From Synergistaceae bacterium (lineage in GTDB: Bacteria; Synergistota; Synergistia; Synergistales; Synergistaceae): a DNA stretch of 50,848 nucleotides. Under the pieces are notes generated by a model. That model saw only the letters and a program-made list of their open reading frames with translations, was not told the DNA's origin and ran no database searches. Location of the stretch: positions 1-50,848 of the forward strand of contig JAUNJZ010000018.1 of assembly GCA_030533085.1 (NCBI GenBank). The letters are read 5' to 3'. A program made the position numbers and the translations under genes. Positions 4,489 through 22,496 of this stretch are shown in pieces (position 1 is the first letter of the stretch; the number at the start of each line of letters is the position of its first letter).

Positions 4489-5430
4489 TCACTTATCGAC
4501 GCTCACCAGCTCGTAGCGCTGACTGCCCAGCCCTATCTTTTCGCCGTGCGTCAGGACGTGCGGGCCGCTGAGCGATTCCATGCGCTCGATAAGCGATTTG
4601 CCGTCCGGCGCGGAGTAGACGAGATCGACGCAGGCTTTGTCAAGCGCCACCGGGTCGAGGGAGGCGAGTATCCCTATATCGTGCATGTCCGGCTCGGCGG
4701 GGCTGCTGTCGCAGTCGCAGTCTATTGAGAGCTTATTCATCACGTTGATGTAGAGTATCTTGCCGCCAAGGCTGTCAACGACGGATTTGCCCGCTTCAGC
4801 CATAGATTCCAGGAAGGCAATCTGTTCGCCGCCCCAGGGGCTGCTGTCGCTCTTTCCGCCGCTGTGGATGCGCGCCTTGCCGCTTTTTGAGGCTATGCCG
4901 ATGGAGATGTTTTTGATAGCGCCGCCGAAGCCGGCCATCGCGTGCCCCTTGAAGTGTGAGATGACCACATAGTAATCATAGTTTTTGAAGTGCGAGCCGA
5001 CTAGATTCTCTTTGAAATATTTGCCGTTCTTCACGGGCAGAGCCATAGAGCCTTCCGCGTCCTGAATGTCTACCTTCGCTATCGCGGTGAAGCCATGCTC
5101 GCGAGCCACCTCCATGTGAGAGGCGGTCGTCGCGCGCGCGCCGTTGTAGGCTGTGTTGCATTCTACGATCGTTCCCTTCACCGACTGCACCAGCCCTTTG
5201 ATAAGCTCCGGCGACAGGAAGTTGTGTCCGCCGCGTTCGCCGGTGCTGATCTTGACCGCGACATTTTTTCCGTCAGCCTTGCTTTCCAGCGCGTTATAGA
5301 CAGCCATAAGCCCCGCCGGACTGATATCCTTCGTCATATAGACTCTGGAGGGGGCGGCCTCCGCCGACAGACAGGATAGGGCTGCGAAGAGCAGCGCCAG
5401 CGCAGTGATACGCTTGAAAAACTTTTTCAA
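4489..5430 (-). CDS. exported DUF362 family protein 1
   Basis: A 313-residue DUF362 protein with a Sec signal peptide (MKKFFKRITALALLFAALSC, cleavage likely after AEA near residue 26). DUF362 proteins are often iron-sulfur or flavin-linked and many carry a ferredoxin domain; this one lacks it. Visible family features are the YMTKDIS start of the domain, VISHFKGHAMAGFGGAIKN in the middle, and DIGILASLDPVALDKACVDL near the C-terminus. Cysteines in the segment DCDCDSSP could bind metal. The start is TTG at 5430, with GGGAG upstream; the only nearby ATG runs into a stop after three codons. It lies downstream of a second DUF362 paralogue on the same strand, but has its own MerR-type promoter (5527-5557). 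Catalytic function is unknown. Confidence 0.8.
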   Translation of the reverse strand: MKKFFKRITALALLFAALSCLSAEAAPSRVYMTKDISPAGLMAVYNALESKADGKNVAVKISTGERGGHNFLSPELIKGLVQSVKGTIVECNTAYNGARATTASHMEVAREHGFTAIAKVDIQDAEGSMALPVKNGKYFKENLVGSHFKNYDYYVVISHFKGHAMAGFGGAIKNISIGIASKSGKARIHSGGKSDSSPWGGEQIAFLESMAEAGKSVVDSLGGKILYINVMNKLSIDCDCDSSPAEPDMHDIGILASLDPVALDKACVDLVYSAPDGKSLIERMESLSGPHVLTHGEKIGLGSQRYELVSVDK

Positions 5431-5568: not shown

Positions 5569-6549
5569 TCAGTCTATCGACAGCAGCCGGTAATTTCTCC
5601 TCCCCGCGCCCGCTGCCTCGGCGTAGCCCAGCAGGCGGGTGTTGTGCGTCCGCTCCCACTCTTCGCGGACGGCGGAAGATGGGGCTGCCCCGAAGGTTAT
5701 ATCTACCGCCGCCTGATCCGCCGCCACCGGGTCGAGCGAGGCAAGAATGCCTATATCGCCGAACGGCGTCGTATTCGCGCAGGAATCGTCCGGTTCTATG
5801 GCTGACAGGACGTTGATGAATACCCAGCGATCTTTTTTGTAATCGAGAGCGGCCTTCACCCCATCGGCCAACGCTTCAAGAAAATCCTCGTCGCTCGCCG
5901 CCGGTGAGTAGCTCTCGCTGGTTCTTCCGGCGCTGTGAAGGTTGCATTTGCCTGATATCGAGGCCAGGCATATAGTCAGATTTTTCAGCGTGCCTCCGTA
6001 GTTTTCAATATGATGCGATTTGAAGCGCACGACGGATATGACGGAATCGTAATCCGCGAAATGGGAGCCTGTGCGGTGATATTTCAGATGCTTGCCGTTC
6101 GTCACAGGCATGTCAAGCTCCCCCTCCGCGTCAAGGATATCGACCGGCCCTACGGCGGTGAAGCCGTGGTCGGCCGCGACTCTGAGATGTCCCTCCGTGC
6201 TGTTGCGCGGCGGCGTGAGGCCGTTGGAGTCGATAAATGTTCCGTTCACCCTGTCGCGCAGCGCCTTTAACAGCGCTGGGGAGAGATACGGGCCGCCCGG
6301 CGATTCAAAGGTCAGCTTGATTCCGACCTTCCCCTGAGGAGCGCGCCCCAGCGCCTCGTAAATTTTGAGCAGACCGGCGGCGCTCACATCCTTTGTAAAA
6401 TATACCGCCGGCGCGGAGCCCTCCGTAACGCGATGAGCCAGCTTATCAAGAGGCGCCCCGCCGCTCGCCGCCGCAAAAGCCGCGCCGCCCGGAGATACGA
6501 GCAGCAGAGCGAGCGCGAGACTTAAAAGCTTTTTTAATCCGCTGTACAT
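5569..6549 (-). CDS. exported DUF362 family protein 2
   Basis: A 326-residue paralogue of the preceding DUF362 protein, with a Sec signal peptide (MYSGLKKLLSLALALLLVSP, cleavage likely after AFA near residue 26). It shares the order of motifs with its neighbour: VYFTKDVSAAGLLKIYEAL, VRFKSHHIENYGGTLKNLTI and DIGILASLDPVAADQAAVDI. It lacks the Cys pair of its paralogue in the corresponding segment (one Cys in DDSCANTTP) and has no ferredoxin domain. ATG 6549 is preceded by GGGAGG. It has its own MerR-type promoter (6583-6613). Location in the periplasm and shared promoter type link it to the FMN-binding and flavodoxin genes at 9.8-14.9 kb. The biochemical role is unknown. Confidence 0.8.
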   Translation of the reverse strand: MYSGLKKLLSLALALLLVSPGGAAFAAASGGAPLDKLAHRVTEGSAPAVYFTKDVSAAGLLKIYEALGRAPQGKVGIKLTFESPGGPYLSPALLKALRDRVNGTFIDSNGLTPPRNSTEGHLRVAADHGFTAVGPVDILDAEGELDMPVTNGKHLKYHRTGSHFADYDSVISVVRFKSHHIENYGGTLKNLTICLASISGKCNLHSAGRTSESYSPAASDEDFLEALADGVKAALDYKKDRWVFINVLSAIEPDDSCANTTPFGDIGILASLDPVAADQAAVDITFGAAPSSAVREEWERTHNTRLLGYAEAAGAGRRNYRLLSID

Positions 6550-12250: not shown

Positions 12251-13123
12251 CTATTTTTTAATTACCTCTGCCGCGCAGGCGAGCGCGTTGAGCGTCCTCG
12301 GGAAGCCCATATAGGGAAGGCACTGCGTTATGGCCTCGATTATCGTATCTTCGTCGTTGCCGACGTTGAGATTGCCCTGAACATGGCTCCTGACCTGGCT
12401 GTCGCAGCCGCCCTGCGCAGATATGATGCAGAGCGTGAGTATTTCGCGCGTTTTCAGGTCGAGCGCCCCGCGCGTGTAGAAGTCCCCGAAGCAGAAGGAG
12501 GCTAGATATTCCGCCATGTGCTTTCTGTTTTCCGGCGAGTTCCGATACATGCCGTCAAGCCCCGGAGGGAAGATAGAGGCCTGCGTCTGGAAACCCTTTT
12601 CGCAGCGGTCTCTCTCTGTGACTGTCGCCTGACTCTCGACCGGAAGCTTCACATTCTTCTCGCGGAAGGCCTCGTTCATCTTATTCGCCGCCGCGAGCGC
12701 CTTTGAGAAGCCGATGTATGGGGCGCACTGGTAAACAGCCTCTTTTATTTCCTCCGGCGTTAGGCCGACGTTGAGCGAAGCCTTCACATGCGCCTTGAGT
12801 TCGTCAAGCGTCTGGTTCGTCGTCATGACGGAGAGCGTTATCAGCTCGCGCTGCCTGTCGGTAAGCTTGCCGCGCTGATATATGTCGCCGTAAACAAAGT
12901 TGTTCATCATCTCCGCAAGCTCTTCGCCGTTCGTATAGTAGGCTCCGTCGCCGCCCTTGAATAGCTCGGCGAATTTCGCGCGCCCCTGCGCCGCGCGGTC
13001 GCGCTTCTGCGCCTCCAGCGCCCACGCGGGAGTCTCCCGCGCCTCCGCCGCCATAGCTCTCCCCGCCGTCATCCCGACGACAAAGATAAGCGCCGCCGCC
13101 ATCAATAGATATTTCATCTGCAT
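12251..13123 (-). CDS. exported double-domain carboxymuconolactone decarboxylase family protein
   Basis: A 290-residue protein with a Sec signal peptide (MQMKYLLMAAALIFVVGMTA, cleavage after AMA near 25) and two CMD/AhpD-like domains, about residues 65-145 and 190-285. Each has the helix pair with DRQRELITLSVM...ELKAHVKASLNVGLT and TREILTLCIISA...QVRSHVQGNLNVG, and each ends with a Cys in YQCAPYIGF or TQCLPYMGF. The AhpD-type CxxC peroxidase motif is absent, so a decarboxylase or isomerase-like role, or an unknown one, is more likely. ATG 13123 follows GGAGG. It lies between the FMN-binding gene and the MerR gene on the same strand. Export of this family is uncommon. Confidence 0.85.
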   Translation of the reverse strand: MQMKYLLMAAALIFVVGMTAGRAMAAEARETPAWALEAQKRDRAAQGRAKFAELFKGGDGAYYTNGEELAEMMNNFVYGDIYQRGKLTDRQRELITLSVMTTNQTLDELKAHVKASLNVGLTPEEIKEAVYQCAPYIGFSKALAAANKMNEAFREKNVKLPVESQATVTERDRCEKGFQTQASIFPPGLDGMYRNSPENRKHMAEYLASFCFGDFYTRGALDLKTREILTLCIISAQGGCDSQVRSHVQGNLNVGNDEDTIIEAITQCLPYMGFPRTLNALACAAEVIKK

Positions 13124-13651: not shown

Positions 13652-13682
13652 ACTCTATCTCTTAGAGTTGACTCCATGTCAA
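13652..13682 (-). promoter_or_regulatory. MerR-type promoter/operator before the FMN-binding gene
   Basis: Minus strand: TTGACA (13677-13682), 19-bp spacer, TAGAGT (13652-13657). The plus-strand spacer reads CTTAGAGTTGACTCCATG, with one good CTTAGAG half-site and a degenerate second half. It lies 37 bp from the -35 box of the divergent NosR-like gene promoter. Confidence 0.75.
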
Positions 13683-13718
13683 GCGCGGGGGATAAAATTT
13701 TTCCGCCGCATTTTCCTA

Positions 13719-13749
13719 TTGCCTTAGAGTCAGCTCCAGCAGTTATAAT
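13719..13749 (+). promoter_or_regulatory. MerR-type promoter/operator before the NosR-like gene
   Basis: TTGCCT (13719-13724), 19-bp spacer with CTTAGAGTCAGCTCCAG, and a consensus TATAAT (13744-13749). A start of transcription near 13756 would give a leader of about 28 bases with GAGGGGG before the ATG. Confidence 0.8.
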
Positions 13750-13783
13750 CTCCGTACAGATTGAATTTGAGAGGGGGCGCGGC

Positions 13784-14941
13784 ATGAAAAAGAAGCTTCT
13801 GCATCTTGCCGCTTTTACGGCCGTACTGCTGGCAATTACAGTAATAGCGCTCAACAGGGAGGGAAGGCTGCCGGAGACCGCCGCAGTAGAAAATGACGGC
13901 GCAGAGAGACGGACTGAATGGCTGACGGAAGACGGCTTTCGTGTGATTTCCACCGAGGAGCTGGCAAAGGATATTCTAGGATTCGGCGGAAACATTCCGC
14001 TGCACATATATATGAAAGATGGGCGCGTCGCGCGCGTAGAGGCGCGCGGCAACTACGAGACGCCGCCATTCTTCGCGCAGGTGGAGGAGCGCATACTTTC
14101 CGCATGGAACGGCCTGACCGCCGACGAGGCGCTGGAAAAGGAGGTCGAGGCTGTGAGCGGGGCGACTATCTCTTCGCGGGCCGTGATAGGAAGCTTCCGG
14201 CGCGGCATGGAGTACGCGCGCGGCGCGGCGGCTCCCGCTTCCGGCGAGAGCGCCGCCCCCGACGTGCGCTCTCTGGCGGCGATTGCCGCGGCGCTTTGCG
14301 GGATCTTCCTTCCTCTCTTCATAAAATCGCCTCGCTACCGCCTCTTCCAGCTATTGGCAAACACGGCGGTTCTCGGCTTCTGGAGCGGGACCTTTATATC
14401 CCTTTCGCTGCTGATGAATATCGCCGCCAACGGCCTGAGGGCGCGGAATCTCGCGGCGGCGCTGCCGCTTCTCTTCGCCGCCTTCGTCATGCCGTTTTTC
14501 GGCAAAAAGGGGCATTACTGTTCATGGATATGCCCATTCGGCTCATTGCAGGAGCTGCTTGGCAAGCTTATTCCCTATAAGGTGAAGCTCCCCGCGTGCG
14601 CGGTGAGATGGCTGGAATATTTCAGGGAGGCCGTATGGCTTGCGATGATGCTGCTGATGTGGCTTGGCACAGGCTTTGAGCTGATGGATTACGAGCTTTT
14701 CTCCTCCTTCCTCTTCCTCCGCGCCGCTCCGGCGGTGCTGATCCTGGCGGCGCTCTTCCTCGCCCTCTCGCTCGTCACGCCGCGCCCCTACTGCCGCTTC
14801 CTCTGCCCCACAGGCACGCTGATAAGATTCGCGCAGGGCGACTGCGGCGCGGCCGCCGCGCCGGATGCTCTGCGCTTCTCGCTTATCGCCTCATTCGCCG
14901 CAGCCGCGCTCTGGGTCGCCGCCAATACATTTATCTTCTAA
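13784..14941 (+). CDS. NosR/RdhC-like membrane protein: FMN-binding domain plus polyferredoxin-type membrane domain
   Basis: A 385-residue inner-membrane protein. An N-terminal membrane anchor (residues about 4-22) is followed by a periplasmic FMN-binding domain (about 40-150) containing EVEAVSGATISSR, the classical SGAT motif flavinylated by ApbE. Then come about five membrane segments, with two cytoplasm-side cysteine motifs, CSWICPFGS (about 247-255) and CRFLCPTGT (about 337-345), as in NosR, PceC/RdhC and the NapH-type membrane proteins. It therefore looks like a conduit that moves electrons between membrane quinols or cytosolic donors and periplasmic flavin acceptors. The start ATG 13784 has GAGGGGG upstream. 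It is divergent from the FMN-binding/flavodoxin operon and shares its promoter type, so it is the likely electron entry point of that system. Confidence 0.85.
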   Translation: MKKKLLHLAAFTAVLLAITVIALNREGRLPETAAVENDGAERRTEWLTEDGFRVISTEELAKDILGFGGNIPLHIYMKDGRVARVEARGNYETPPFFAQVEERILSAWNGLTADEALEKEVEAVSGATISSRAVIGSFRRGMEYARGAAAPASGESAAPDVRSLAAIAAALCGIFLPLFIKSPRYRLFQLLANTAVLGFWSGTFISLSLLMNIAANGLRARNLAAALPLLFAAFVMPFFGKKGHYCSWICPFGSLQELLGKLIPYKVKLPACAVRWLEYFREAVWLAMMLLMWLGTGFELMDYELFSSFLFLRAAPAVLILAALFLALSLVTPRPYCRFLCPTGTLIRFAQGDCGAAAAPDALRFSLIASFAAAALWVAANTFIF

Positions 14942-15147: not shown

Positions 15148-16557
15148 TTACGTCCGCCGTCTCGTCTCCGCTGCGGAAAGCGTGATAATCGCGCACAGGC
15201 CTCCCTGCGGACGGTTTTTCAGAACCAGCGAGCCGTCGTTGAGCAGCACCATGTTGCGGGCGATAGAGAGGCCCAGCCCTGTGCCGCCGGATTCGCGGTT
15301 GCGCGACCCTTCCAGGCGGTAATACGGCTCAAAGACCTTTTCCAGCAGCTCTTCCGGTATTCCGGGGCCGTCGTCCTCGACACGGATGACGACCTTTGAC
15401 TTTTCCTTCTCTACGGAGATGACAGCGCCGCCGGCGTAATTTACGGCGTTCGTCAGCAGATTTTCTATACTGCGCCGCAGGCAGGTGGGACGCGCGCAGA
15501 CGAGCAGCGGAGACTCATCCTCCGGCATGTCGCCGATGCGCACCGCGCCCCCTTCCATGTCGTCTGCGATACTCTCCACGAAGGCGACGACATCCAGCGG
15601 CGCGGCCTTTTCCGAGGTGTGCAGGCTGCGCGCAAGCTCCAGCCCCTGCTCGATTATGGAGCGTATCTCCTCAACGTTGGCGGCGAACCTTTCCCGCAGT
15701 TCGTCCGGCTCTATCCTGTCCAGCCGCAGCTGGATGCGCGCCAGCGGCGTGCGCAGGTCGTGCCCCATCGCCTCAAGCATAGCGTTTCTCTCGTTGAGGC
15801 TTTCGCAGATACGCGCCCTCATGCGGTTGAAGGACTGCGCCGCCTCGCGTATCTCGCGGCTGCCGCACTCATCCAGCGGCCGCGCCGCCTCCGGGTTGCG
15901 CCCGAAGCGCTCCGCCTCCTGCGCGAGCCGCTCTATCGGCCTTGTAGCGCAGCGGATGAGGACGATGACTATAAGCGAGAATATCAGCGATTCAAGGAAT
16001 ACGAATATCCGCTGCCGCCATATAAGACGATCGTCCGTTATCATGAGCGGCTGCACCAGCTCCAGCCAGCGCCCATCCTCCATCCTGATCGCAACTTGCA
16101 GCATCGGGAAGAAGTAGCCCGCGTAATCGGGCGACGATTCCTCCGGCGAACCAGGCTTCAGCATCCTTACGCGGATTTCGGGAATCTCCATACCGGCCTT
16201 GCCGATGATTTCCGACAGCGCCTTCTTCATGTTCTCGGCTTTGTAATAATCCTGGCTCTGCCATTCCGGCTCCGGAATCACCCGAAAGCGGAAGGGCTTT
16301 TCAAGCCTGTCGCGCGTATCGGCCAACCCTTTCAGATAGGCGTCGCGGTGCGGCGCCTCCATCATATTCAGCGCCTGATAGACGGAGGCTATATAATCGT
16401 GGCCGATTCCCAGTACCTCTCTTGCGGAGGCGTGCTGTATAGAGCAGACGGCGTAAAAGTTCATAAACTGGTTCGCCGCGGCCCCCAGCACAAGGATCAG
16501 CAGTATAAGGCCGAAGAGAGAATCGGGCCTTATCGCACGGCAAAGGCGCTTCATCAT
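15148..16557 (-). CDS. sensor histidine kinase (EnvZ/CpxA-like)
   Basis: A 469-residue membrane kinase. TM1 is at about residues 15-37, a periplasmic sensor of about 145 residues follows, TM2 at about 185-203, HAMP to about 257, a HisKA domain with EAMGHDLRTPLARIQLRLDR (phosphorylated His near 268), and a HATPase domain with N-box ENLLTNAVNYA, G1 DDGPGIP and G2 GGTGLGLSIA. The ATG overlaps the stop of the response regulator by four bases, a standard translationally coupled pair. It lies between the NosR-like gene and the Tat/MerR operon, so a role in sensing the periplasmic redox state or envelope stress is possible, but the sensor domain shows no recognisable ligand motif. Confidence 0.9.
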   Translation of the reverse strand: MMKRLCRAIRPDSLFGLILLILVLGAAANQFMNFYAVCSIQHASAREVLGIGHDYIASVYQALNMMEAPHRDAYLKGLADTRDRLEKPFRFRVIPEPEWQSQDYYKAENMKKALSEIIGKAGMEIPEIRVRMLKPGSPEESSPDYAGYFFPMLQVAIRMEDGRWLELVQPLMITDDRLIWRQRIFVFLESLIFSLIVIVLIRCATRPIERLAQEAERFGRNPEAARPLDECGSREIREAAQSFNRMRARICESLNERNAMLEAMGHDLRTPLARIQLRLDRIEPDELRERFAANVEEIRSIIEQGLELARSLHTSEKAAPLDVVAFVESIADDMEGGAVRIGDMPEDESPLLVCARPTCLRRSIENLLTNAVNYAGGAVISVEKEKSKVVIRVEDDGPGIPEELLEKVFEPYYRLEGSRNRESGGTGLGLSIARNMVLLNDGSLVLKNRPQGGLCAIITLSAAETRRRT

Positions 16558-17315
16558 TTTGCATGCTCCCTTCTGACCGGCGCGGCGAGCATATAGCCGT
16601 CGCCGCGCATCGTCCTGATCAGCCCGGGGCTGTTTCCCTTGTCGCGCAGCTTCGCGCGGAGGCGGCTAACCTGCGCGTCAATGCTGCGGTCGTAGATATT
16701 CAGGCTGCGCTCCGCGAGATAGTCCATAATCATATCCCGCGTAACGACCTGCTGCGGGTGGCTGAGCAGCAGCATCAGCAGCCGGAACTCCGCCGCTGAG
16801 AGCGGCACGACGACCCCCTCTTCATCTATCAGGTGGCGCGCCATGACGTTGAGCTTCCAGCCGCCGAATACAAGCAGGCTCTCCGCCCCCTCCGTACCGG
16901 CCGCCGCCATGCCTCCGCGCACATCCTGCGAGAGCGACGAACGGCGCAGCAGCGCGCGTATCCTCGCTATAAGCTCGCGCGCGTGGAAGGGCTTGCACAG
17001 ATAATCGTCGCCGCCTATCTCAAGGCCGACGACCTTATCAGTGGTATCTTTCAGCGCCGTCAGGAATATTATCGGAACGGCGCACCAGGGCGCGCCGGGG
17101 ACGCGCAGCCGGCGGCATATCGAAAGGCCGTCCTCCCCCGGCATCATAATGTCCAGCAGGATCAGGTCGAAGCTGTCGCGCTCGAGAGCGGCGAAAAGCT
17201 CCGCGCCGTTCTTCGCCTCCTGCGAGCAATAGCCGTACTCGGAGAGCGTCTCCGCGATAAGCTCGCGCAGCTCCCTGTCGTCGTCCACTATTAAAATCCT
17301 TGCCTGCTCCGCCAT
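16554..17315 (-). CDS. OmpR-family response regulator
   Basis: A 253-residue two-domain regulator: receiver domain at residues 5-120 (ILIVDDDRELRELI acidic pocket, phospho-Asp in LILLDIMMPGEDG, Lys in YLCKPFHARELIAR) and a Trans_reg_C winged helix at about 155-245 (PLSAAEFRLLMLLLSH, QVSRLRAKLRDKG, IRTMRGDGYML). I place the start at ATG 17315, which has GGAGG eight bases upstream; the in-frame ATG at 17336 has none. The region before it shows ATTGGATTAT and ATTGGATAAT as direct repeats around a CATATT-AA-AATATG dyad and a likely promoter (TTGGAT, 18 bp, TAAAAT), which could be the autoregulatory site. It is co-transcribed with the downstream kinase. Confidence 0.92.
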   Translation of the reverse strand: MAEQARILIVDDDRELRELIAETLSEYGYCSQEAKNGAELFAALERDSFDLILLDIMMPGEDGLSICRRLRVPGAPWCAVPIIFLTALKDTTDKVVGLEIGGDDYLCKPFHARELIARIRALLRRSSLSQDVRGGMAAAGTEGAESLLVFGGWKLNVMARHLIDEEGVVVPLSAAEFRLLMLLLSHPQQVVTRDMIMDYLAERSLNIYDRSIDAQVSRLRAKLRDKGNSPGLIRTMRGDGYMLAAPVRREHAK

Positions 17316-17403
17316 CGCCTCAGCCTCCGCTTTCATCTTTAATTATCCAATCATATTTTAATATGCGGCGCGATAATAATCCAATGACATAATCTTACAA
17401 TTG

Positions 17404-17543: not shown

Positions 17544-17915
17544 ATGTACACTGTGAAACAGGTTTCCGAGATCACCGGCATTTCAGGCTATACGCTCAGA
17601 TTCTACGATAAAGAGGGGCTTTTTCCGAATCTCGCCAGGGACGAACAGAACAGACGCCTCTTCTCCGATGAAGATATCAGCAGCATCAGGACGATACAGG
17701 ATCTGAGAGAGATGGGCTTCTCCATCGCGCAGATACGCAGCTACATCGGCGCGGAAGAAAAGAGCGGCGCCGCCGTCAGACGCGACATAATCATGGAACA
17801 GATGGAGCGCCTGAAATCCGAGCTGGCCGCCTTAGCGCGTCAGATGAAGCTGCTGCAATCAAAGGCGGAACATTACGAGGCAGCCGCGGGCGGTAGCTCA
17901 TGGGCAGCCGCCTGA
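17544..17915 (+). CDS. MerR family transcriptional regulator (first gene of the Tat operon)
   Basis: A 123-residue MerR protein: winged helix-turn-helix at residues 1-70 (MYTVKQVSEITGISGYTLRF, YDKEGLFPNLARDEQNRRLF), coiled-coil dimerisation helix at about 80-112, and a short Ala-rich tail. It has no cysteine, so it does not sense metals or thiols through Cys as MerR/SoxR do. GGAGG lies before ATG 17544. It is the first gene of a plus-strand set with a 29-residue membrane peptide, a Tat-exported FMN reductase-like protein, TatA, TatC and a Tat-exported Fe-S aldo/keto reductase-like protein. It probably regulates this operon and itself; the 87-bp upstream element is the likely target. Confidence 0.85.
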   Translation: MYTVKQVSEITGISGYTLRFYDKEGLFPNLARDEQNRRLFSDEDISSIRTIQDLREMGFSIAQIRSYIGAEEKSGAAVRRDIIMEQMERLKSELAALARQMKLLQSKAEHYEAAAGGSSWAAA

Positions 17916-17947
17916 TAACGCATGAAGAAATAAAGAAAGGTATCCTT

Positions 17948-18037
17948 ATGGACATAAGAATGACGCTCATGACAATCCTGATAATGCTCGCCGCCATATT
18001 CATAGGCGTCATGCTCTGGGATATCTGCTGCGTTTAA
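17948..18037 (+). CDS. 29-residue single-pass membrane peptide
   Basis: A short ORF in the gap between the MerR gene and the FMN reductase gene encodes M-D-I-R followed by a hydrophobic segment (MTLMTILIMLAAIFIGVMLW) and ends D-I-C-C-V. GAAAGG lies at suitable spacing before ATG 17948. The peptide is a single membrane helix with two cysteines near one end. It sits 32 bases after merR and 39 bases before the next gene, so it is probably translated with the operon. A role as small partner of the Tat or redox proteins is possible but unsupported. It may be absent from automatic annotations because of its size. Confidence 0.5.
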   Translation: MDIRMTLMTILIMLAAIFIGVMLWDICCV

Positions 18038-18076
18038 ATGCCGCATATTTAAATATTTAAAGGAAAGGGAGTAAAA

Positions 18077-18742
18077 ATGAATCGCAGAGATTTTATCAGA
18101 ACATCACTGGCAGCGGCAGCGACAGCCGCGGGAAGCGCATTGATGAGGGGGGCGCTGCCTGCCGCCGCCGCGACCGCGGGGAGGGCTGCCAGCGCCCCGA
18201 GCGGAGGAAAGCAGAAAATTCTCGTACTGACGGGCAGCCCGCGCCGCGAGGGAAATTCCAACACGCTTGCCTCGCAGTTTATAAGAGGGGCGCAGGAGGC
18301 GGGACATGAGGTGGCGCGTTTTGACGCGGCGCTGAAAAAGGTCAACCCCTGCTCCGCCTGCGGCCGCTGCGGAATGAACGGCCCATGTGTATTCAACGAC
18401 GATTTTTCCTTCGTCCGCGAGCATCTCGTGCCCGCGAATGTCGTAGTATTCGCGACGCCTATGTACTATTTTGGAATATCGGCGCAGCTCAAGGCAGTTA
18501 TAGACCGCTTCTACGCCGTCAACGGAGAGATACACGTTCCAAAAAGGGCGGTGCTGATGATGACCTACGCCAACAGCGCCGCGTCGGAGGCGCAGCCGAT
18601 AATTTCCCATTATGAGCTGCTGCTGAGCTACCTCGGCTGGAGAGACGCGGGACAGATCATCGTACCGGGAGTATGGCCGGTAGGCGCGATCAACGGCACA
18701 AGATATCCGGACCGGGCCTACCAGCTTGGCAAATCAATATAA
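18077..18742 (+). CDS. Tat-exported NADPH-dependent FMN reductase/flavodoxin-like protein
   Basis: A 221-residue protein with a twin-arginine signal: RRDFIRTS at residues 3-10, a hydrophobic Ala-rich stretch and a cleavage site near residue 35-40. The mature part is a flavodoxin-fold NADPH-dependent FMN reductase (ILVLTGSPRREGNSNTLA phosphate loop, FATPMYYFGISAQLKAVIDR). It contains CSACGRCGMNGPC (about residues 94-106), a cluster of four Cys as in iron-sulfur flavoproteins, which would explain the need for Tat: cofactor insertion and folding before export. It is followed by TatA and TatC in the same operon, so it is a likely dedicated substrate. RBS AAAGGGAG. Confidence 0.9.
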   Translation: MNRRDFIRTSLAAAATAAGSALMRGALPAAAATAGRAASAPSGGKQKILVLTGSPRREGNSNTLASQFIRGAQEAGHEVARFDAALKKVNPCSACGRCGMNGPCVFNDDFSFVREHLVPANVVVFATPMYYFGISAQLKAVIDRFYAVNGEIHVPKRAVLMMTYANSAASEAQPIISHYELLLSYLGWRDAGQIIVPGVWPVGAINGTRYPDRAYQLGKSI

Positions 18743-18802
18743 ACGGCAAAAAAGGATTCCCGCCCAGGCGGCGAAAATAAAAATTCTAAGGAGGCAGCAA
18801 AA

Positions 18803-19018
18803 ATGTCATTAGGGTTCACGGAAATAGTTTTAATCGCGCTTTTCATACTCATCGTATTCGGAGCGAAGCGTATCCCCGAGCTGGCGCGCGCCATGGGACG
18901 CGCCTCGTATGAATTCAGAAAAGCGAAGGAAGAGCTGAGCGCAGAGAGCCGCGAGTTTATGGAAGCCGCGGAGAAATCCGCCGAAAATGAAGATCTGAAA
19001 ACGGAAAAAGCCTCATGA
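18803..19018 (+). CDS. tatA: twin-arginine translocase subunit TatA/TatE
   Basis: A 71-residue Tat pore subunit. One N-terminal membrane helix (residues about 4-20, FTEIVLIALFILIVFGAKRI) is followed by the conserved FGAKRIPELARAMGRA hinge and an amphipathic helix, then an acidic tail. This is the common TatA/TatE pattern; no separate TatB is present in the window, so it would work as a minimal TatAC system. AAGGAGG precedes the ATG. The stop overlaps the TatC start by four bases. Confidence 0.92.
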   Translation: MSLGFTEIVLIALFILIVFGAKRIPELARAMGRASYEFRKAKEELSAESREFMEAAEKSAENEDLKTEKAS

Positions 19019-19791
19019 ACGGCAGGGAAACGGAAGAGAGCTTCATATCTCATCTTGAAGCGCTGCGCGGCGCGCTGCTGCGCTGTGTGACGGTCACCGC
19101 CGCTCTTTATCCGTTTGGGTACATCGCGTCGCCCTATATCATCAACGCTCTGGTGCGCTGGTGTTTTCCCGAAACGGCGGGCACGCTGCACTACTTCGCG
19201 CCGATGGAGGTGCTGTGGGTGCGGCTGCGCCTCGCGCTGATACTCTCGCTGCTGGCGGCCTATCCATGGAATATTATGCAGCTCTGGCGCTTCCTGCTTC
19301 CCGCGCTCTATAAGCGGGAGCGCCGCGCGCTGGGAGGCTGTCTCTTTTCCTCCTCGCTGCTCTTCTTCTGCGGCGCGGCATTCAGCGTCGGACTCATTCT
19401 GCCGCTGCTGATGAACTTCTCCGGCGGCTTCGCCACAGCGGAGCTGCAGCCGAGTATCGGACTGGCGAACTTCCTGAATCTGGCCGGCTGGCTGACGCTG
19501 GCATTCGGCATCATGTTCCAGTCGCCGGTAATAGTCCTGCTCTCCGTCCGCTTCGGCGTAGTCTCCAGCGAGAGCCTTCGCGCCAAACGCCCTTACATAA
19601 TAACGCTGATACTCATCGCCGCCGCAATACTGACGCCGCCGGACGTTATCAGCCAGCTTATGCTGGCCGTCCCGACCTGGCTCTTATTTGAACTGGGGCT
19701 GGCGATGGCGAAAAGAATGGAACGCATGGCCGAAGAGGAGCGGCTGGAGCCGCTGCTGCGCGAAGAGCTGCAAGAGAGGCGTTTCGGATAA
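19015..19791 (+). CDS. tatC: twin-arginine translocase subunit TatC
   Basis: A 258-residue integral membrane receptor of the Tat pathway with six expected membrane segments. The N-terminus reads EESFISHLEALRGALLRC, matching the conserved SHLxELRxR cytosolic motif of TatC that binds the RR signal. Other family stretches are FAPMEVLWVRLRLAL, FLLPALYKRERRAL and LTPPDVISQLMLAVPTWLLFELGL. ATG overlaps the tatA stop (ATGA). It is flanked on both sides by genes with RR signal peptides, a rare arrangement of translocase with its substrates. The reading frame continues open for 34 codons after the stop; see the separate entry. Confidence 0.95.
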   Translation: MNGRETEESFISHLEALRGALLRCVTVTAALYPFGYIASPYIINALVRWCFPETAGTLHYFAPMEVLWVRLRLALILSLLAAYPWNIMQLWRFLLPALYKRERRALGGCLFSSSLLFFCGAAFSVGLILPLLMNFSGGFATAELQPSIGLANFLNLAGWLTLAFGIMFQSPVIVLLSVRFGVVSSESLRAKRPYIITLILIAAAILTPPDVISQLMLAVPTWLLFELGLAMAKRMERMAEEERLEPLLREELQERRFG

Positions 19792-19896
19792 CTTTTTAAC
19801 AGCCTGCGGGTAAACGTCAATGGAAGCGGCAACACCAATGCCGCCCCTCAAAAGAAAATCGTGGAGCAATACACTTACCGCTTGAGCGGCAGCTAA
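19792..19896 (+). other. open stretch in frame after tatC stop (possible gene remnant)
   Basis: Directly after the tatC TAA the same frame stays open for 34 codons without a start codon and ends with TAA at 19894-19896, 24 bases before the aldo/keto reductase gene. The peptide (LFNSLRVNVNGSGNTNAAPQ, then more, ending YRLSGS) is polar and looks like the C-terminal end of an exported protein. It may be a gene remnant, a readthrough extension of TatC, or chance. Confidence 0.25.
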
Positions 19897-19920
19897 GGAA
19901 ACGGAGGAAAAGAATACAAA

Positions 19921-21153
19921 ATGGACAGAAGAGATTTCGTTAAAGGGATGGCGCTGACTGTCGGCGGACTGGCGGGAGGCGCGGCGCTGAATCTCCGGCT
20001 AAAAGGGGACGCGGCTTTGGCCGCCGACAGCCGTCCGGCCGCGGGAGGAAACGCGATGGAATACCGGCAGATGCGGCGCGTCAGCGTTCCCGTCAGCGCC
20101 ATCGGCATAGGCTCAGGCAATCTGCACAGGGTCGAAGACAGGGAGATACGGGAGATAATACGCTGCGGCTATGAGAACGGCGTGAACCTGATAGACCTGA
20201 TAGCCGTGAACAGCGCCCCCTTTGCCCCGATTGCGGCGGAGGTGAAGCCGCGCCGCGATAAATTCAGGCTTCAGGCGCACCTCGGCGCGGACTTCTCCGG
20301 CGGCTCCGTCAGCACCACCCGCGACCTTGCGCGCGTAAAAAGTGAATTTGAACGTATGCTGCGGATATTCGACACAGATTATATGGACTTCGGCATAATC
20401 CATTATGTTGACGCGATGGATGATTTCCGCGACATCATGGATTCGGGGATATGGAGCTACATGAAGCAGCTGAAAAGCCGCGGAGCCATCAGAAATCTCG
20501 GCTTCTGCTCGCATACCCTCTCGATATGCAAAGCCTTTGTGGATACGGGAGACGTAGACTGCTTCATGACAAGCGTCAATCCTATCTACGATTTTTCAGA
20601 GAGCGGCGGCAGGCTTACGATGTCGCAGGAGCGCATGGAATTTTACCGCGACTGTGAAAAGAACGGCGTCGGCATCCACGTGATGAAGGCGCTGGCCGGC
20701 GGCTCGCTCATAGACAGGAGGCTCTCGCAGATGGAACGTCCGCTGAGCGTTCATCAGTGCTTCCAGTACGCGCTGGACCGTCCGGCAGTGCAGAGCTGCC
20801 TTGCCGGCGTCAGCAGCATCGAGGAAATGAGGGAGATCGCCCCTATATTCACGCTTCCATTCGACAGACGCGACTACTCCGCCCTGAGCGGAATGAACAA
20901 CAGCACAGTCACCAACGGCAGCTGTATCTACTGCAACCACTGCCAGCCCTGCGCCGCCGGCATCGACATCGGCATCGTCAATAAATATTACGACCTGGCG
21001 CGGGCGGGAGACGAAATGGCGCGCAGACACTACGACGCGCTGAAGGTTCACGCCTCCGCCTGTATCAAATGCGGAAACTGCGATAAAAACTGTCACTTCG
21101 GCGTGAAGCCCTCAGAGCGGATGGCGCTCGCGGCAAAGTTCTTCGGAAAATAG
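19921..21153 (+). CDS. Tat-exported aldo/keto reductase-like protein with C-terminal 4Fe-4S motifs
   Basis: A 410-residue protein with an RR signal (RRDFVKGMALTVGG at residues 3-16, cleavage near 36), an aldo/keto reductase barrel (about 50-320) and a C-terminal ferredoxin-like region with CIYCNHCQPC (about 335-344) and CIKCGNCDKNC (about 381-391). In classical enzymes the tetrad is Asp, Tyr, Lys, His. Here the Asp (NLIDLIA) and His (IIHYVDAMDD) are kept, but the Tyr position falls in DLIAVNSAP without Tyr and the TK position reads LQAHLG. A normal NADPH-dependent ketone reduction is therefore doubtful; a cofactor-loaded barrel serving in electron transfer is an alternative. It is the last gene of the MerR-Tat operon. 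RBS ACGGAGG. Confidence 0.9.
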   Translation: MDRRDFVKGMALTVGGLAGGAALNLRLKGDAALAADSRPAAGGNAMEYRQMRRVSVPVSAIGIGSGNLHRVEDREIREIIRCGYENGVNLIDLIAVNSAPFAPIAAEVKPRRDKFRLQAHLGADFSGGSVSTTRDLARVKSEFERMLRIFDTDYMDFGIIHYVDAMDDFRDIMDSGIWSYMKQLKSRGAIRNLGFCSHTLSICKAFVDTGDVDCFMTSVNPIYDFSESGGRLTMSQERMEFYRDCEKNGVGIHVMKALAGGSLIDRRLSQMERPLSVHQCFQYALDRPAVQSCLAGVSSIEEMREIAPIFTLPFDRRDYSALSGMNNSTVTNGSCIYCNHCQPCAAGIDIGIVNKYYDLARAGDEMARRHYDALKVHASACIKCGNCDKNCHFGVKPSERMALAAKFFGK

Positions 21154-21174: not shown

Positions 21175-21624
21175 TCAGACGCTGTTTTTCAGGCGCGCCC
21201 TGACCGGACGCAGCTCCTCGGGAATTTCCGCGTCAGGCATATTATCCGGCGCTTCCGTCGTGCCGTGCTCTCTGGCAGTCTCGTAATACCAGCATTTGTA
21301 ATTTACAATGTCCAGAGTCTCCTGAAGCCGCCGCATCTGCGCCTCCACCACAGCCTTTTGGCTCTGAAAGAGCCGCAGCCTTGCCTCGATGCTGCCGTCT
21401 CCCTCCAGCGTCAGCTTTACAAATTCCCGGATATCCTTCAGCTGCATACCGGTCGCCTTCAGACATTCGATAATTTTCAGCAGCCCGTAATCCGAATCGC
21501 GGAAGAGCCTCGCGCCCCCTTCGGAGCGTTCTATTGAGGGAAGCAGCCCCTCCTTGTCATAATAGCGAAGCGTGGAGGGGGCGACGCCAAGCTTCTTTGC
21601 CATTTCGCCCACTGTATAAGACAT
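21175..21624 (-). CDS. MerR family transcriptional regulator (divergent from RibD/DHFR-like gene)
   Basis: A 149-residue MerR protein: helix-turn-helix at 1-70 (MSYTVGEMAKKLGVAPSTLR, YYDKEGLLPSIERSEGGARL), a coiled coil at about 80-115 and a C-terminal tail with VNYKCWYYETAREHG, a pattern common in MerR regulators that bind small organic effectors. A single Cys is present there. It is divergent from the reductase gene at 21759; the shared intergenic region holds a 19-bp-spacer promoter. Its 3' end converges on the Tat operon. It is most likely the local regulator of the reductase gene and its own expression. Confidence 0.88.
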   Translation of the reverse strand: MSYTVGEMAKKLGVAPSTLRYYDKEGLLPSIERSEGGARLFRDSDYGLLKIIECLKATGMQLKDIREFVKLTLEGDGSIEARLRLFQSQKAVVEAQMRRLQETLDIVNYKCWYYETAREHGTTEAPDNMPDAEIPEELRPVRARLKNSV

Positions 21625-21663: not shown

Positions 21664-21694
21664 TTGACTTAAAGTTCACATTAACTTGTATCAT
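21664..21694 (+). promoter_or_regulatory. MerR-type promoter before the RibD/DHFR-like gene
   Basis: TTGACT (21664-21669), 19-bp spacer, TATCAT (21689-21694). The spacer contains AAGTT-N6-AACTT, a dyad different from the CTTAGAG dyad of the four redox promoters, which suggests that the divergent MerR protein (21175-21624) binds here. Confidence 0.75.
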
Positions 21695-21758: not shown

Positions 21759-22496
21759 ATGGAGAGACCATTTATTTTTTGCCACATGATGACCTCTGTC
21801 GACGGAAAGATCATGGGAAATTACATGGATACGCCGGAGGGGGAAAAGACAGGCGACGTTTTTTACAGCCTCGCCTTCGGAGCGGAGGCATTTTATCCGA
21901 TGGACGCATGGATATGCGGCAGGATAACGACGGAGGACAACTTTACCTTCTACAGAAAGCCGGCGCTCGACGAAAATGCTCCGGCCGTTCCGGAAGGGGA
22001 CTATGTCGTCCCCGCGCGCTTTGACAAATACTACGTTTCCCTCGACCCGTCGGGAAAGGTGGGCTGGGAGAGCGACAGCGTGCAGTATATGGATACCTCC
22101 GCCAATGTTATAGAGCTGCTGACGGGAAAGGCGAGCAACGCCTATAAGGCCTTCCTGCGCAGGATGAATATATCCTATATCATCGCGGGGGAAGAAAGGC
22201 TGGACTGCCATCTGGCCGTGAAAAAGCTGTATGAGCTGTTCGGAGTCAGGAATCTGATGCTGGGCGGCGGCGGGATAATAAACTGGTCCTTCATCCGCGA
22301 AGGGCTGTGCGATGAGCTGAGCGTCGTCGTCACCCCCTCCGCAGACGCTTCCACAGCGACGCAGACGCTCTTCATGGCAAAAGAGGGGCTGACGGAGGAA
22401 AAGCCGGTCGGCTTTTCCGTCATAGACGCCAAAGTGTTGAGCGGCGATATCATATGGCTGCGCTACAAGGTAAAAGATTCCGCTGAAAAGGGATAA
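21759..22496 (+). CDS. RibD C-terminal / dihydrofolate reductase-like reductase
   Basis: A 245-residue cytosolic protein of the RibD_C/DHFR-like family. Typical features are the N-terminal FIFCHMMTSVDGKIMG (family: SxDGKI), AWICGRITTEDNF, and a late LMLGGGGIINWSFIREGLCD, which is the NADPH-binding GGG...N..F...GLVDE motif. It lacks the deaminase half of RibD, so a stand-alone NAD(P)H-dependent reductase of a small molecule is likely; the substrate is unknown. GGAG precedes ATG 21759. It is controlled by a MerR-type promoter and the divergent MerR gene, which fits an inducible detoxification or redox function. Confidence 0.8.
   Translation: MERPFIFCHMMTSVDGKIMGNYMDTPEGEKTGDVFYSLAFGAEAFYPMDAWICGRITTEDNFTFYRKPALDENAPAVPEGDYVVPARFDKYYVSLDPSGKVGWESDSVQYMDTSANVIELLTGKASNAYKAFLRRMNISYIIAGEERLDCHLAVKKLYELFGVRNLMLGGGGIINWSFIREGLCDELSVVVTPSADASTATQTLFMAKEGLTEEKPVGFSVIDAKVLSGDIIWLRYKVKDSAEKG

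Follow-up and report, generated by a model that had tools for sequence, protein, structure and literature searches.

The locus considered here lies at positions 17544 to 21153 of a 50,848-nucleotide stretch of contig JAUNJZ010000018.1 from a gut-dwelling Synergistaceae bacterium (assembly GCA_030533085.1), the whole of which is referred to as the window. The locus encodes a minimal twin-arginine translocation (Tat) system, TatA-TatC, that is the only one found in the genome and that is encoded beside its predicted cargo. The interpretation that we favor, with a probability of roughly 0.6, is that this sole TatAC exports two cofactor proteins encoded in the same operon and that these proteins are probably fed with electrons by a NapH-like donor. 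The interpretation is drawn from sequence comparisons.

The tatAC locus and its two predicted substrates

Six elements follow one another in a single order, all on the forward strand: merR, a small open reading frame (ORF), a gene for an FMN_red protein, tatA, tatC, and a gene for a protein with the aldo/keto reductase (AKR) fold. Family assignments (MerR, FMN_red, TatA, TatC, and aldo/keto reductase, the last with an Fe-S region at its C terminus) were made with Pfam and NCBIfam profiles. The intergenic gaps from merR to the AKR gene are 32, 39, 60, -4, and 129 nt, the negative value reflecting the 4 nt that the tatA and tatC reading frames share. A preliminary description of this DNA had reported six collinear genes with short gaps, and that description was borne out. 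The row is considered a putative operon, and its co-transcription is plausible; scans for promoters and terminators yielded figures close to chance.

The translocase genes are tatA (18803 to 19018, forward strand; 71 amino acids; PF02416, 58.2 bits; TIGR01411, barely above the cut-off) and tatC (19015 to 19791, forward strand; 258 amino acids; PF00902, 175.9 bits; TIGR00945, 158.5 bits versus a cut-off of 132.7). A search of the whole assembly, which comprises 2.63 Mb in 76 contigs and is 95.5% complete, recovered TatC in single copy at this locus and one gene of the TatA/B family above the cut-off, the tatA of this locus, with no separate TatB. No second tat locus was found. The core interpretation of a minimal TatA-TatC translocase encoded beside its predicted cargo survives this check.

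The first predicted cargo protein (18077 to 18742, forward strand) has an FMN_red fold (PF03358, 72.1 bits), a Tat signal above the PF10518 cut-off, and a CX2CX2CX5C motif, which we take to be the compact cluster motif of iron-sulfur flavoproteins. It thus combines the flavodoxin/FMN reductase fold and the compact CX2CX2CX4-7C motif of the Isf family, and its cofactors are predicted ones. In an alignment covering four genomes, the MNRR[DE]FI start and the four cluster cysteines are invariant. The signal-bearing FMN_red gene is directly 5' of tatAC in all five of the Synergistota genomes that have it (G000, G137, G138, G127, and G128). Among the other FMN_red homologues listed, the alignment is either limited to the mature part or broken in the signal region.

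The second predicted cargo protein (19921 to 21153, forward strand) combines a Tat signal (TIGR01409, above the cut-off) with an AKR fold (PF00248, 66.6 bits) and two four-cysteine Fe-S motifs. The Asp and His of the AKR catalytic tetrad Asp-Tyr-Lys-His are kept, and Asn and His occupy the Tyr and Lys columns, so the tetrad is not canonical. Because the protein lacks the catalytic Tyr and Lys and has two four-cysteine motifs, it looks less like an NADPH enzyme than like an Fe-S redox protein that uses an AKR barrel as its scaffold. When the FMN_red and AKR proteins were compared with PDB sequences, only distant matches were obtained, to flavodoxin-like and AKR proteins.

Tat signals and conservation of the module

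Four screens for Tat signals were applied to the window genome: the PF10518 and TIGR01409 profiles, a custom hidden Markov model (HMM), and a DNA pattern. The custom HMM was built from 14 Synergistota Tat signals, with the FMN_red and AKR signals among the training rows. With PF10518, the FMN_red protein alone exceeded the cut-off, the AKR protein scored 11.1 bits, and five further weak matches were unlike signal peptides when their sequences were read. With TIGR01409, the AKR protein ranked first (17.6 bits; cut-off, 16.7), followed by the FMN_red protein (15.5 bits) and then noise. The custom HMM scored both proteins at 45 to 46 bits and had no other match at an E value of ≤1. The DNA pattern RRxF[LIVFM][KR] occurred 89 times, versus 134 times for a reversed control; each of the 55 true Arg-Arg matches outside the operon was read, and none had a Tat-like start plus a hydrophobic stretch. 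The four screens agree that the genome has two credible predicted Tat substrates, FMN_red and AKR, both inside the operon, and no other convincing one was found within the limited recall of the screens.

The row of Tat-signal FMN_red, tatA, and tatC is present in five genomes from three genera of one family. Because it is kept in G137, G138, G127, and G128, a chance neighborhood can be excluded for this core. Conservation did not extend to the rest of the row. An AKR orthologue 3' of tatC is found in G138 (71% identity), with its Tat-like signal kept, and no other relative shares it at this place. The small peptide has no recognizable homologue at the related loci, and merR has no counterpart at this position in G137, G138, or G128. 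In G138, the interval between FMN_red and tatA holds a gene for a third protein with a Tat signal, an AKR that retains the usual catalytic residues. The lack of a second tat locus or another convincing substrate, together with the kept synteny, supports the earlier proposal of a specialized export route with linked substrates.

Two further observations concern these relatives. The region around the G138 module (L042) is rich in apparently exported proteins, among them a flavodoxin with a Sec-like signal (positions 12888 to 13457 of L042) beside a cupin, a CMD-family protein, and two DUF362 proteins. In G128, a Tat-signal amidohydrolase-like protein and a Tat-signal AKR-Fe-S protein are encoded side by side at positions 6171 to 8443 of L046 (G128 C1:308171-310397), distant from tatAC.

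Across the phylum, TatC was present in 71 of 188 Synergistota genomes, in single copy apart from fragments. Tat signals were detected with the HMM in 54 of the 71 genomes with TatC versus 5 of the 117 without it (Fisher p 4.5e-26, relatedness ignored); as the custom HMM favors signals like those in its training set, this association is strong but not unbiased. Forty-eight of the 65 detected signals lie within 6 kb of tatC; each of the other 17 is on a different contig from tatC, in an assembly made up of several contigs. A linked row common to many Synergistota consists of a Tat-signal DUF362 gene, a gene for a NapH-like polyferredoxin of about 500 amino acids, tatA, and tatC (for example, loci L049, L050, L053-L057, and L060). 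Some loci of one genus carry a Tat-signal ODP beta-lactamase/flavodoxin protein instead of DUF362. The idea of Tat as a housekeeping system encoded on its own therefore fails in Synergistota, in which it is an accessory trait that is commonly substrate-linked.

In a Synergistota genus other than that of the window genome, a Tat-signal ODP beta-lactamase/flavodoxin (flavodiiron-like) protein is encoded directly 3' of tatAC (L024, positions 3 to 1422). The window itself encodes two DUF362 proteins on the reverse strand (4489 to 5430 and 5569 to 6549) that have Sec-like rather than twin-arginine signal peptides, in contrast to the Tat-signal DUF362 protein that is the tat-linked cargo in other Synergistota. 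Literature searches, in which most subscription journals were outside the coverage, returned nothing relevant on Tat in Synergistota and no paper naming tatA, tatC, and DUF362 jointly, the latter a weak negative for that reason. A possible connection with the dehalorespiration of fluoroacetate in Cloacibacillus was weighed and set aside: the operon is glycine-reductase-like, and the available portion of that report mentions no Tat component (PMC10838667).

Candidate electron donor, regulation, and alternative explanations

A PceC/NapH-like membrane protein with an FMN_bind domain (PF04205, PF12801) is encoded at 13676 to 14941 on the forward strand, about 3 kb upstream of the operon; the true start is probably near 13784. 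PceC/RdhC proteins have an SGAT motif and two CX3CP motifs (PMC5928378). The window protein has the features of this class, with SGAT at residue 161, CX3CP at 282 and 373, and hydrophobic segments, and a single gene for ApbE, the enzyme that carries out flavinylation, is present in the genome. Flavinylated proteins of the NapH-like type are believed to relay electrons through the membrane, either toward or away from oxidoreductases outside the cytoplasm (PMC8238504). Orthologues of the gene lie directly 5' of FMN_red, at a distance of 90 nt in G137 and 160 nt in G138, and this synteny suggests that the NapH-like protein is a likely candidate for the electron donor.

In the mechanism that we propose, TatAC would export two cofactor proteins that are encoded in its own operon and have already folded. 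One would be an Isf-type iron-sulfur flavoprotein with an FMN reductase fold, and the other an Fe-S protein with two clusters and an AKR barrel. Outside the membrane, the cargo would probably take electrons from the flavinylated PceC/NapH-like protein and may in turn reduce, or relay electrons to, some extracytoplasmic acceptor.

Several observations weigh against this proposal or weaken parts of it. In the AKR protein, the signal falls short of the Pfam Tat cut-off, though it exceeds that of NCBIfam, and the operon of G137 lacks the AKR gene. Three more Tat-signal proteins are encoded at a distance from tatC in G128 (by sequence reading, two AKR-like and one amidohydrolase-like), which indicates that dedication is not strict everywhere. 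In the window, a histidine kinase/response regulator pair on the opposite strand separates the NapH-like gene from the operon, and the NapH-like gene was not seen adjoining the module in G128. The assembly is missing 4.5% of the genome. Furthermore, the custom HMM recovered one of seven Escherichia coli Tat proteins at an E value of ≤0.01 and three at ≤1; the motif of the DNA pattern fits five of these seven. Because its recall on E. coli was poor, the HMM was not used as the sole evidence. The limited recall also means that the two substrates are the two detectable by these screens and that atypical ones may have been missed.

It could be argued that TatAC is an ordinary general Tat system that lies beside two of its substrates by chance, with the others being atypical or encoded in the missing sequence. 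The incomplete recovery of E. coli Tat proteins by the signal searches and the three unlinked Tat-signal proteins of G128 would be consistent with this. However, four different screens converged on the same two substrates. With the HMM, at least four signals were found at an E value of ≤0.01 in some genomes outside the phylum, such as G190 and G195, and none at ≤0.1 in six Synergistota genomes that lack TatC. Furthermore, 46 of the 54 signal-bearing Synergistota genomes have exactly one detected signal. A general system is therefore considered unlikely, although it is the alternative that survives best.

Regulation bears on a second alternative. The MerR-family regulator (17544 to 17915, forward strand; PF13411, 68.8 bits) has no cysteine. 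The adjacent hydrophobic ORF of 29 codons (17948 to 18037, forward strand), with one predicted transmembrane stretch, is uncertain as a gene: it had no family match in Pfam or NCBIfam and no recognizable homologue at related loci (best tblastn E value, 4.7). The regulator that does stay near the module in relatives is a two-component pair, an EnvZ-like histidine kinase and an OmpR-type response regulator (15148 to 17336, reverse strand), whose orthologues lie near the module in G137 and G138 and which are candidate regulators. Because merR is unlinked in the relatives and its product lacks cysteine, control by MerR, which the preliminary description had taken to make the operon inducible, is not supported.

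A second MerR gene (21175 to 21624, reverse strand) lies beyond the operon. Between it and a RibD_C gene starting at 21759 on the forward strand, positions 21664 to 21694 hold a TTGACT-19 nt-TATCAT element with an inverted repeat within the spacer; promoters under MerR control typically have an elongated spacer of this kind.

The second alternative retains the same exporter and cargo but considers them a stress or detoxification unit under MerR-type control, for the reduction of quinones, nitro compounds, or aldehydes, rather than a NapH-fed chain. The FMN_red and AKR families include detoxifying reductases, the MerR regulator adjoins oxidoreductases of flavin and AKR types, and the NapH-like gene is outside the operon proper in the window. 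However, it is the NapH-like gene that adjoins the module in G137 and G138, and merR is not conserved there. Furthermore, NADPH is not expected outside the cytoplasm, and the AKR protein lacks the catalytic Tyr and Lys. A detoxification role is thus considered rather improbable.

The possibility that the genes are unrelated, coincidental neighbors with nonfunctional RR signals draws on the weak PF10518 score of the AKR signal but is very improbable, because the signal start and the synteny are kept across three genera and similar cargo adjoins tatC in other phyla. An assembly or binning artefact that placed a foreign contig in the window genome might be suspected from an assembly of 76 contigs and a TatC that is foreign to other Synergistota, but the same cluster with the same neighbors in G137 and G138, each a single-contig genome of 3.5-3.6 Mb, argues so strongly against it that it can be given almost no weight.

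Origin of the translocase and relationship to known systems

The public TatC sequences nearest to that of the window outside its family are those of gut and rumen Lentisphaerota and Riflebacteria (59-69% identity), and in a maximum-likelihood tree the window clade nests with them. A constraint joining the window clade to the DUF362-type Synergistota TatCs was rejected by the approximately unbiased (AU) test (p-AU 3.5e-6), with the caveat that the grouping was picked after the first tree had been seen. The tree and the AU test support the view that the translocase was transferred horizontally. Movement of tatC by lateral transfer among occupants of one niche was reported earlier (PMC3827258). 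At four loci from gut and rumen Lentisphaerota and one further genome, a Tat-signal cargo gene is directly 3' of tatC, encoding an AKR-Fe-S protein in L062, L063, and L066 and a DUF362 protein in L064, with a polyferredoxin gene upstream; the cargo gene overlaps tatC or is no more than 7 nt from it in three of the four. The Riflebacteria loci are without such Tat-signal cargo beside tatC. Joint transfer of exporter and cargo between phyla is plausible.

A broader proposal, which we put forward tentatively and regard as somewhat doubtful, is that the module represents a mobile, self-sufficient Tat cassette in which the translocase, its folded Fe-S/flavin cargo, and the membrane donor are passed on together. 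A bacterium lacking Tat could then acquire both an extracytoplasmic redox enzyme and the exporter for it through a single transfer, and Tat would be a cargo-bound accessory trait with several forms (Isf/AKR, DUF362, and AKR-Fer4) rather than a housekeeping system.

Most work on Tat concerns general systems that serve dozens of substrates, a setting in which it is difficult to assign phenotypes or to study the co-evolution of translocase and signal. One TatAC with one to three co-encoded substrates would be a natural minimal Tat system, and numerous parallel cases exist in the phylum, some having it and others lacking it. On this pattern, gene neighborhood predicts Tat cargo, and the pattern also hints at a hitherto undescribed Fe-S/flavin redox chain outside the cytoplasm of gut anaerobes.

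Substrate-linked TatAC systems are already known. The window locus resembles them in having adjacent substrate genes that are kept in relatives and few or no other substrates within the limited recall of the screens. No description was found, in a literature search that mostly did not cover subscription journals and is thus weak on this point, of a sole Tat system that is apparently restricted to the Fe-S/flavin cargo of its operon, that is linked to a NapH-like protein of the flavinylated type, and that belongs to a phylum with cargo-linked accessory Tat.

In Bacillus subtilis, TatAd-TatCd is encoded beside the gene of its exported substrate PhoD (PMC3827258), so that tatA and tatC adjoin a substrate gene as they do in the window. 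However, a second Tat system exists in B. subtilis, the PhoD substrate is a phosphodiesterase rather than an Fe-S/flavin protein, and the cluster has no electron donor. The tatAC genes of Listeria and Staphylococcus lie beside fepCAB, an arrangement that places TatAC and a redox substrate, the FepB peroxidase, under shared control (PMC4481299). The likeness is again the linkage of TatAC to a redox protein, but those systems concern a heme peroxidase, iron uptake, and Fur control in Gram-positive bacteria, in contrast to the Fe-S/flavin cargo and different TatC clade of the window.

PceC/RdhC and NapH-like systems likewise place a membrane protein with FMN_bind, SGAT, and two CX3CP motifs beside an exported redox enzyme (PMC5928378, PMC8238504). 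The window differs from them in that the partners are an Isf-type flavoprotein and an AKR-fold Fe-S protein and in that the Tat translocase is itself part of the module. Like the window, the DUF362-polyferredoxin-tatA-tatC loci of other Synergistota combine, within one row, a single tatAC with one RR-signal protein and an Fe-S protein of the NapH-like type, but their cargo and donor are different and their TatC belongs to a separate clade. The Lentisphaerota Fer4-tatA-tatC-AKR/DUF362 loci have the nearest TatC clade outside the family and a Tat-signal Fe-S AKR or DUF362 protein directly after tatC. In contrast to the window locus, however, their cargo AKR keeps the catalytic Tyr and Lys, FMN_red is absent, and the donor is a polyferredoxin.

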